Assembly: GCF_000515415.1 (NCBI RefSeq)
Contig: NZ_KI911783.1
Span: forward strand, 1,168,392-1,232,391
From: Bradyrhizobium sp. WSM1417
GTDB lineage: Bacteria > Pseudomonadota > Alphaproteobacteria > Rhizobiales > Xanthobacteraceae
Direction: 5' to 3'
Length of the DNA stretch: 64,000 nt
Below the pieces are notes generated by a model. That model was not told where the DNA came from. It worked only from the letters and a program-made list of their open reading frames with translations, and ran no database searches. Shown here piece by piece: positions 43,437 through 46,183 of the stretch; position 1 is the stretch's first letter; each line of letters opens with the position of its first letter. The position numbers and the translations under genes were made by a program.

Positions 43437-43706
43437 CTATTCAGCCGCCTCTGCGAGCGGGAGCACCGAGATGAAGGTGCGGCCGTTGGCTTTGGCCTGG
43501 AACGTTACGCGGCCCTCAACCTTGGCGAACAAGGTGTGGTCCGTGCCCATGCCGACATTAAGGCCGGGATGCCAGGTGGTGCCGCGCTGACGCGCAATGA
43601 TGTTGCCGGGAATCACAACTTCCCCGCCGAACGCCTTGATACCGAGGCGCTTGCCCTTGGAATCGCGACCGTTGCGCGATGAACCGCCTGCTTTTTTGTG
43701 AGCCAT
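43437..43706 (-). CDS. rpmA: 50S ribosomal protein L27
   Basis: 89-residue L27, which reaches into the peptidyl-transferase centre. The N-terminus [20 protein letters not shown] and the middle [20 protein letters not shown] are essentially family consensus. It needs no N-terminal cleavage extension of the kind seen in Firmicutes. It follows rplU by 97 bp, a gap holding a small hairpin around CACGCATCA/TGATGCGTG (43772-43797). Confidence 0.97.
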
Positions 43707-43803: not shown

Positions 43804-44196
43804 TTATGCGGCGGCCTCTTCGGTCGTGGTCTCCGGCTTGGCGACCTTCTCCCGCTTCGGACGCGGCCCCTTGGTGGGCTTGGCGCCGTCCGTCAGGATC
43901 TCCGAGATGCGCAGCACGGTGATCTCGTCGCGATAGCCGCGCTTGCGGCGCGAGTTCTTGCGGCGGCGCTTCTTGAACGCGATGACCTTGGGACCGCGCT
44001 TGTGGTCGAGCACCTCGACCGCGACGGAGGCGCCGGCGACCGTGGGCAGACCCAGGATCGGCGTGTCGCCGCCGACCAGGAGAACTTCATTGAGCTGCAC
44101 GATCGAGCCGACTTCGCCTTCGATCTTGCCTACTTCCAGGACATCATCCGGAACGACGCGGTACTGCCGGCCGCCGGTTTTGATGACTGCGAACAT
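43804..44196 (-). CDS. rplU: 50S ribosomal protein L21
   Basis: 130-residue L21. [14 protein letters not shown] at the N-terminus and [24 protein letters not shown] near the end of the core are diagnostic. Compared with the roughly 103-residue E. coli protein there is a C-terminal Lys/Glu/Ala-rich extension (from about residue 105), usual in rhizobia. First gene of the rplU-rpmA pair, with a leader hairpin just upstream. Confidence 0.97.
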
Positions 44197-44255: not shown

Positions 44256-44530
44256 GTCAGTCGCTATGGGTTTATGCGAGTTTTGTGCGGGCGGGAGTTA
44301 TCCCTTTGAAAACCCACGCAAAAACAAGCGGCGCGAGAAACGCCCCGCGCCGGTTGCGGGATTTATAGCCGCTGATCCCCCGGAGTCAAGGAAAAGCCGG
44401 CGAAAACGGCCCGGATTTGAAGCATTTGGGCCCGATCCGGCCCCGCAGGCGAATTTCGGCTTGCGCCGCAACCAACAGGTTCCCCCGCCGTTGTCCCGGC
44501 GAATTCAGTCACACGGGCAAGGGGCTTACC

Positions 44531-45676
44531 ATGGCGACAGACGAGCTGGTCAAGACGACGACGGGCATCGCCCATCACGGCGCCGAGCGGCTGCCGTCGG
44601 TGGATATCGACAGCTTCAATATCGAGATGAAGGACGAGGATGGCTTCATCGGCGACCGCGCCAGCAAGGGCGCGTTCAGGGAGATCCTCGAGCGCTGGCG
44701 CAAGCCGCTACGCAAGTCCGGCGAGGACCCGTTCGGCAAGGAGCCGTCGGACGAGATCAGCAAGAAGACGCTGGACGCCATCCTGGTCGGCGATGACACC
44801 GAGGCCTGGGCGGTGGTGCATAGCGCCATCGAGGACTTCGCCCAGGAGCTCGCGTACGTCACCCGCCGCTTCCTCAAGTCCAAGGCCTGGGCCAAGACCG
44901 AGCGCATCGTGGTCGGCGGCGGTTTTCGCGATTCCAGGCTCGGCGAGCTCGCGATCGCGCGCACCGAGATCATCCTCATGGCCGAGGATTTCAAGATCGA
45001 CATGCTGCCGATCCGTCATCATCCCGACGAGGCCGGCCTGATCGGCGCGCTGCATCTGGCGCCGTCATGGATCTTCGAGGCCCATGACAGCATCCTTGCC
45101 GTCGATATCGGCGGCACCAACATCCGCTGTGGCTTGGTGGAGACCAGCTGGAAAAAGGCAAAAGACCTGTCGAAAGCCAAGGTCGTGAAGGCCGAGCTGT
45201 GGCGTCATGCCGACGACGAGCCGACGCGCGAAGGCGCGGTGAAGCGGCTCACGAAGATGTTGAAAGGGCTGATCACCGAGGCCGAAAAGGAAGGCTACAA
45301 GCTGGCGCCGTTCATCGGCATTGCTTGTCCCGGCGTGATCAACGCGGACGGCTCGATCGAGAAAGGCGCGCAGAACCTGCCGGGCAATTGGGAGAGCAGC
45401 AAGTTCAACCTGCCGGCGAGCCTGCTCGAGGGCATCCCTTCCATCGGCGAGCACGACACCGCGATCCTGATGCACAATGACGGCGTGGTTCAGGGCCTCT
45501 CCGAGGTGCCGTTCATGCAGGACGTCGATCGCTGGGGCGTGCTCACCATCGGCACTGGGCTCGGCAATGCCCGCTTCACCAACCGCCGCAAGGACAACGG
45601 CAAGGACAAGGATAACGGCAAAGACGGGGATTCCACGGGCAACGGGAAGAAAAAAGCCAAGAGCGACAAGGAGTAA
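44531..45676 (+). CDS. ROK-family sugar kinase-like protein with circularly permuted motif order
   Basis: 381 residues from ATG 44531 (AAGGGG upstream). The motifs are those of ROK/hexokinase-fold kinases but in unusual order. First come IVVGGGFRDSRLGE (126-139) and DEAGLIGALHLA (166-177), normally at the C-terminal end of ROK proteins. Then phosphate-1 DIGGTNIRCG (192-201), CPGVI...NLPGNW (266-287), the catalytic Asp region HNDGVVQGLSE (315-325) and phosphate-2 IGTGLGNA (340-347). After that only a Lys/Asp/Gly-rich tail follows. The ExGH and zinc-cysteine motifs of standard ROK kinases are not seen. Substrate unknown; activity is plausible because the Asp is kept. Stand-alone gene, divergent from rplU. 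Confidence 0.8.
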   Translation: MATDELVKTTTGIAHHGAERLPSVDIDSFNIEMKDEDGFIGDRASKGAFREILERWRKPLRKSGEDPFGKEPSDEISKKTLDAILVGDDTEAWAVVHSAIEDFAQELAYVTRRFLKSKAWAKTERIVVGGGFRDSRLGELAIARTEIILMAEDFKIDMLPIRHHPDEAGLIGALHLAPSWIFEAHDSILAVDIGGTNIRCGLVETSWKKAKDLSKAKVVKAELWRHADDEPTREGAVKRLTKMLKGLITEAEKEGYKLAPFIGIACPGVINADGSIEKGAQNLPGNWESSKFNLPASLLEGIPSIGEHDTAILMHNDGVVQGLSEVPFMQDVDRWGVLTIGTGLGNARFTNRRKDNGKDKDNGKDGDSTGNGKKKAKSDKE

Positions 45677-46093: not shown

Positions 46094-46183
46094 GGAGAGG
46101 TGGCAGAGTGGTCGAATGCACCGCACTCGAAATGCGGCATAGGTGCAAGCCTATCGGGGGTTCGAATCCCTCCCTCTCCGCCA
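46094..46183 (+). tRNA. tRNA-Ser (anticodon CGA)
   Basis: Acceptor stem GGAGAGG (46094-46100) pairs with CCTCTCC (46173-46179); discriminator G at 46180 and encoded CCA at 46181-46183. Anticodon stem CCGCA/TGCGG surrounds loop CTCGAAA with anticodon CGA at 46128-46130, reading UCG serine codons. A long variable arm lies between anticodon and T arms, as expected for class II tRNA, and the T loop is GGTTCGAATCC. Confidence 0.96.

Follow-up and report, generated by a model that had tools for sequence, protein, structure and literature searches.

The protein encoded at positions 44531–45676 (plus strand) of a 64,000-nucleotide stretch of the Bradyrhizobium sp. WSM1417 genome, hereafter the window, is a naturally occurring circular permutant of the ROK sugar-kinase fold. 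Of its 381 amino acids, residues ~186–352 correspond to the N-terminal part of ordinary ROK proteins, and residues ~20–167 to their C-terminal part. The two sequence halves are thus exchanged, with the cut lying after the phosphate-2 motif and the old termini joined by a stretch of about ten residues, and this order is shared by relatives in several families. A circularly permuted ROK-type carbohydrate kinase is, with high probability, the best overall explanation of the gene. The initial annotation had proposed circular permutation from the order of motifs and had placed the event in this gene; family profiles and the complementary folds of the two halves bear out the permutation itself, whereas the event proves to be an old property of the whole family.

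Motif order and profile evidence

Ordinary ROK kinases run from phosphate-1 through the catalytic aspartate and phosphate-2 to the zinc region and the adenosine motif. The window protein departs from this order: all motifs previously named were found in it in the exchanged sequence GGGFRDSRLGE, DEAGLIGALHLA, DIGGTNIRCG, CPGV...NLPGNW, HNDG, and GTGLG, with the expected low-complexity tail, rich in K, D, N, and G (residues 355–381), behind phosphate-2. Pfam profile PF00480 (ROK) aligns residues 189–357 with its own positions 2–147 of 294 (35.4 bits; cut-off 22.9), and the NCBIfam profile for N-acetylmannosamine kinase (NanK) places residues 109–177 on its positions 220–286 of 288, at 19.7 bits and far under its own cut-off of 450. 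Residues 83–164 of one relative (L005) likewise match positions 208–282 of 291 in a beta-glucoside kinase profile. The N-terminal half of the window protein alone is weak in single-sequence scans (no Pfam family; NanK E = 0.15), and exchanging the halves of the single sequence leaves the Pfam score nearly unchanged; such scans therefore offer no proof, and family alignments were used instead.

For these, 124 sequences were extracted from 130 loci, of which 111 were compared by hhalign with 37 ordinary ROK proteins; a motif filter removed the other 13 (L035, L091, and eleven loci of other genera). Kept out of the alignments were L010 (stop codons) and L016 (a fragment), while L139 (wrong anchor) and L118 (a stop codon) were left out of two later alignments (A2 and A3). 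In native order, the permuted family aligns as two exchanged blocks, residues 172–333 on 3–140 (score 81.0) and 24–167 on 182–303 (64.5); with the halves swapped, a single collinear block of 2–335 on 3–303 is obtained, with a score of 127.1. In two sets, the N-half family profile reached scores of 62.9 and 65.5, whereas column-shuffled controls (40 each) did not exceed 24.7 and 19.5. The swapped family profile scored 119.3 and 111.2 over its whole length against two further, narrower ROK sets. Compared separately as family profiles, as had been proposed at the outset, residues 1–190 and 190–350 each match the opposite half of ROK proteins. Over the narrower sets as a whole the picture is mixed: swapping brings no gain against fructokinases alone (51.1; best native block 51.6) or against polyphosphate glucokinases (PPGKs; 87.8, native 90.1). 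The N-terminal half alone scores 50.4 with fructokinases, 44.9 with a glucokinase-like set, 26.8 with a set from another class, and 11.2 with PPGKs.

Structural evidence

Predicted models were matched half by half with VIA-align. The permutation claim had been staked on the N-terminal half not folding as an unrelated domain, and residues 12–186, modelled alone, are predicted to adopt a ROK-type fold. Among the 50 structural matches listed for this model, 49 are proteins of the hexokinase/ROK/pantothenate-kinase fold, the single unrelated entry being 8ap8_g. The ROK matches are mainly C-terminal, with some alignments starting earlier, at chain residues 67–104. On the kinase of human GNE (2yhw), the two halves occupy complementary regions, residues 184–352 lying on 405–554 and residues 23–165 on 553–704.

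Anatomy of the permuted protein

The open reading frame lies where the initial annotation had put it, from an ATG at 44531 to a stop codon at 45674–45676; the features below are all on the plus strand. According to profile alignment and predicted fold, residues 16–176 (44576–45058) represent the C-terminal half of ordinary ROK proteins. They include the adenosine-side glycine loop IVVGGG (residues 126–131; 44906–44923), whose GGG129–131 is invariant, and lead to DEAGLIGALHLA (residues 166–177; 45026–45061), identified from the loci sequences and the alignment as the stretch that closes ordinary ROK proteins; an ending of the ordinary type from the extracted loci is, for example, DDNAGLLGAAAIA. 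Residues 178–186 (45062–45088) are the joint at which, judging from the profile alignment, the old C-terminus meets the old N-terminus. Residues 187–351 (45089–45583) then correspond to the N-terminal half, as indicated by Pfam, profile alignment, and structure match. This half carries phosphate-1 (DIGGTN, residues 192–197; 45104–45121; D192, G194, G195, and N197 invariant), the mostly invariant sugar-side loop CPG...QNLPGNW (residues 266–287; 45326–45391), the invariant HND with the putative catalytic base D317, assigned by homology to NagK D105 (residues 315–317; 45473–45481), and phosphate-2 (GTGLGNA, residues 341–347; 45551–45571), close behind which the chain ends at the permutation cut point. 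The cut falls between GTGLGNAxFTN (341–351) and HGAxxLPxV (16–24), within what is the phosphate-2-to-ExGH region of ordinary ROK proteins. The tail (residues 355–381; 45593–45673) is predicted to be disordered (predicted local distance difference test, pLDDT, < 50).

Conservation was read from 32 sequences, comprising the window protein and 31 relatives chosen for having anchors in the permuted order. D192, N316, D317, and T342 are invariant in all 32, as are the metal, base, phosphate-2, and adenosine residues generally (roles assigned by homology), while relatives have either Ser or Thr at the position of T196. Purifying selection acts on both halves. The structural zinc of ROK proteins is held by cysteines of the motif C-x-C-G-x-x-G-C-x-E. 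Their absence, and that of ExGH, had been remarked upon and is evident here: residues 1–186 contain no cysteine, no invariant or nearly invariant cysteine column occurs there in the 32 sequences, and no ExGH can be recognised, HGAxxLP being aligned by profile with the GEWGHNPLP stretch of ordinary ROK proteins. As the family, though homologous to ROK kinases, lacks these features and the usual motif order, it is filed as a circularly permuted sister group rather than as an ordinary ROK member.

In passages of a study of NagK (PMC10031466), D6 is assigned to metal binding and N104–D105 to the sugar and catalytic base, and T10 and T132 are also named. In our mapping, D6 falls on D192, T10 on T196, N104–D105 on N316–D317, and T132 on T342; for E154 and H157, no counterpart is obvious in the permuted protein. 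The invariant H16 and nearly invariant D42 are candidates for a rebuilt sugar pocket.

The same NagK passages (PMC10031466) describe a small N-terminal domain that takes in the C-terminal helix; the old termini would hence lie close together, and joining them should be easy. The permuted chain would still fold into the two-lobed ROK fold, with an uninterrupted stretch of chain forming the small lobe and the two ends together forming the large one. Asp192 is expected to serve the metal, Asn316–Asp317 to bind the sugar and accept the proton of its 6-OH, Thr196 and Thr342 to hold the phosphates, and GGG129–131 to lie on the adenosine side, with the sugar pocket presumably rebuilt without zinc and ExGH.

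Distribution and phylogeny

Each nearest-protein search scored 8000 candidates, and among the 120 matches listed the nearest proteins are up to 98% identical at 94%–100% query cover, mostly from Bradyrhizobium where named. Relatives are labelled 'ROK family protein', 'NBD/HSP70 family sugar kinase', 'Glucokinase', or hypothetical. In the class, full-length relatives occur in 12 of 289 genomes (one with two stop codons) and in 16 of 385 in a larger draw, where 17 matched but G050 only partly. Across the phylum, 22 of 398 genomes hold full-length copies and 33 more match only over about residues 158–341; across the order, the figures are 31/249 and 47/332, with fragments in three further genomes. 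The draws of class, phylum, and order overlap. Homologues are also found in Burkholderiales (Acidovorax, Polaromonas, Bordetella, and Rhodoferax), and 206 plasmid records match (111 from Rhizobium and 79 from Sinorhizobium), while phage records gave no match.

Two genomes of one genus (G484 and G468) each carry two full-length permuted kinase genes. Decayed copies or fragments are present in G280:C38, G856, G854, and G864 and at 362172–362565 of NZ_CP121645.1, and in-frame stop codons interrupt the copies L010, L117, L118, and G929, all from multi-contig assemblies. Partial ROK hits were considered as further permutants and rejected, the order being ordinary in all five that were read; L203 yielded no open reading frame under the filter used. 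A tandem-duplicated ROK intermediate was not noticed among the 120 proteins listed per search, no dedicated search having been made.

In a tree of 16 permuted and 49 ordinary ROK sequences, the permuted family forms one clade (support 100/98). Two ordinary-order alphaproteobacterial ROK proteins (L199 and L200) are PPGK-like, lack the zinc cysteines, and have stretches in common with the permuted family.

Probable kinase activity and alternative explanations

The window protein is most likely an ATP-dependent carbohydrate kinase; the substrate is probably a sugar and the donor probably ATP, polyphosphate being a less likely alternative. The reading of it as the organism's only glucokinase is rejected, because the genome, an 8.05-Mb single contig around the window, also encodes an ordinary PF02685 glucokinase.

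That ordinary glucokinase, together with the loss of the zinc cysteines and ExGH, lends some weight to the alternative that the permuted fold has no kinase activity and instead senses a sugar or sugar phosphate and acts on another protein, given that some ROK proteins are regulators. This is unlikely: all 32 sequences keep the putative metal and catalytic aspartates and the phosphate-2 and adenosine residues unchanged, Pfam scans show no DNA-binding domain, and one relative (L195, in G741) sits in a sugar-transport gene set. There, the genes upstream encode the substrate-binding protein, the ATPase, and the permease of a sugar-type ATP-binding cassette (ABC) transporter, and the gene downstream a HAD hydrolase, a context that supports a sugar substrate.

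Somewhat less probable still is a permuted polyphosphate-dependent glucokinase derived from the PPGK branch of ROK. NDA-x-VQGL and GTG-x-G stretches are common to both groups, the zinc motif is missing in both, and PPGKs are the neighbours of the permuted clade in the tree, but this placement is weakly supported (71/94) and may stem from long-branch attraction. Whole-length profiles do not favour PPGKs as the origin of the permuted family, scoring better against the two further ROK sets (119.3 and 111.2, as against 87.8), and the score for NF045942 is 21.7 bits, short of its curated cut-off of 250.

That Pfam recognises only the C-terminal part of the protein would also suit an unrelated N-terminal domain fused to a truncated and possibly dead ROK N-lobe; this is very improbable, however, as the N-terminal half resembles the C-terminal part of ROK proteins in both profile and predicted fold, and the two halves are conserved together, each under purifying selection. 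An assembly or gene-model artefact, for which no supporting point was found, can be dismissed, since the order recurs in independent genomes (12/289 in the class, 31/249 in the order) and in 206 plasmid records.

A general-stress promoter motif upstream of relatives

The circularly permuted kinase gene is preceded in many relatives by a motif of the EcfG type. Passages of one study (PMC3892343) give the EcfG motif of R. etli as GGAAC-N16-CGTT and describe EcfG as exclusive to Alphaproteobacteria. The motif was first sighted with a stricter pattern, in 17 of 131 distinct upstream regions (control windows 0.9%); the pattern was slightly changed after this output, to GGAAC-N16/17-[ACG]GTT in the 220 bases that precede the HGA anchor, and was used as it stood for a second set. 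The changed pattern occurs upstream of 24 of 53 genes and in 13 of 27 genus-level groups, whose labels partly overlap (shuffles 0.47%). The second set comprised 15 new genes and four dropped earlier for want of an anchor (L111, L113, L133, and L134), and 7 of its 19 genes carry the motif (shuffles 0.26%), namely 4 of the 15 newly examined and 3 of the 4 reinstated; as the motif had been noticed in the earlier set, the 15 new genes provide the cleanest number. With both sets combined, the motif precedes 31 of 72 family genes, where shuffles predict fewer than one, and it is absent from all 29 ordinary alphaproteobacterial ROK genes used as a control and from five loci outside Alphaproteobacteria. 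L261 (G973) has EcfG-like matches on both strands and could therefore serve a divergent gene.

In a Bradyrhizobium-dominated set, the motif was found in only 2 of 80 loci, both of which lack rplU and lie near DUF892 genes, while an rplU-like sequence is present in 73 of the 80. The window copy, divergent from rplU, has no EcfG motif upstream, and its enzyme is probably kept under other control. For relatives with the motif, membership of the gene in the stress response is reasonably probable.

Gene neighbourhoods

Apart from the kinase, no gene is common to most of 21 loci compared. In R. johnstonii 3841, R. etli CFN 42, and Shinella, the kinase gene and the trehalose gene otsB stand side by side in divergent orientation, and in a member of another family (G732) otsB-like, otsA-like, and trehalase-like GH15 genes lie nearby. 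The divergent neighbour in S. meliloti ml56 is an 'osmoprotectant NAGGN system' peptidase gene, and on Bradyrhizobium plasmid p195_2 a ferritin-like (DUF892) gene stands beside the kinase. Overall, otsB occurs in 5 and DUF892 in 6 of 107 loci, 80 of which come from the Bradyrhizobium-dominated set. In Phyllobacterium, by contrast, the neighbour is an aldolase gene. Directly downstream of the permuted kinase in G182, a 933-residue protein (L180:8801-11602) has a partial phosphoenolpyruvate carboxylase match (PF00311, E 1.2e-17). Induction of R. etli otsB by (p)ppGpp is described in a further study (PMC3188799), for an otsB that may, but need not, be the copy beside the kinase.

From motif and neighbours, the gene likely belongs, in many relatives, to the alphaproteobacterial general stress response, a reading that does not extend to the window copy and where it would serve the metabolism of trehalose or other compatible solutes.

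In the window itself, a Shine–Dalgarno-like candidate read from the sequence, AAGGGG, lies six bases 5′ of the kinase ATG (44519–44524, plus strand). Divergent from the kinase gene, on the minus strand, are open reading frames at 43804–44196 and 43437–43706, which we take from their signatures to be those of ribosomal proteins L21 (rplU) and L27, respectively. ARAGORN places a tRNA-Ser (anticodon cga) downstream, at 46094–46183 on the plus strand.

Comparison with known systems

Ordinary ROK sugar kinases (PF00480; NagK, NanK, the GNE kinase domain, and ROK glucokinase) are homologous to the permutant in both halves. Phosphate-1, the catalytic aspartate, phosphate-2, and the adenosine loop are alike, and the halves are predicted to fold alike; the permutant differs in its reversed halves, its lack of zinc cysteines and of a recognisable ExGH, and, in the window protein, its disordered tail. 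The PPGK branch (e.g., 1woq) is similar in its NDA-x-VQGL and GTG-x-G stretches and in that the alphaproteobacterial members read have no zinc motif, but its order is ordinary and its second half aligns poorly by profile. Mammalian hexokinases I and II are tandem duplications of a related fold. In hexokinase 2nzt, residues 29–352 of the permutant lie on 257–690, from the last part of one unit into the first part of the next, as expected of a permutant, although this is duplication rather than permutation and, at a root-mean-square deviation of 33 Å, the alignment is an illustration only. The EcfG/RpoE2 regulon is linked to many relatives by its motif, but not to the window copy.

Among the open-access PubMed Central titles and abstracts listed in searches on permutation, function, and stress, none reports a permuted ROK kinase, although the broadest of these searches, of whose matches a small part was listed, is a weak test. 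The glucose-kinase superfamily is the subject of a 2025 paper (PMC12696579) whose main text contains no word beginning with 'permut'. The CIRPIN paper (PMC12667903) mentions two ribonuclease H-like domains related to each other by permutation.

Implications

Retained as it is in Alphaproteobacteria and Burkholderiales, a natural permutant of the ROK/hexokinase fold allows one to ask which chain connections the two-lobed fold needs and how sugar binding outlasts the loss of zinc and ExGH. The names 'ROK family protein' and 'glucokinase' rest on a half-domain match, and hence metabolic reconstructions of rhizobia may misassign these proteins. Tentatively, this anciently permuted branch may be a dedicated, EcfG-controlled arm of the alphaproteobacterial stress response, its substrate being a sugar from the turnover of trehalose or osmolytes that is phosphorylated in a zinc-free, rebuilt pocket; having the small lobe as one unit may have altered lobe closure and specificity, and the Bradyrhizobium copy may later have moved beside rplU and been uncoupled from EcfG. 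The EcfG motif and the otsB neighbours together provide a concrete physiological hypothesis that is within reach of standard rhizobial genetics.
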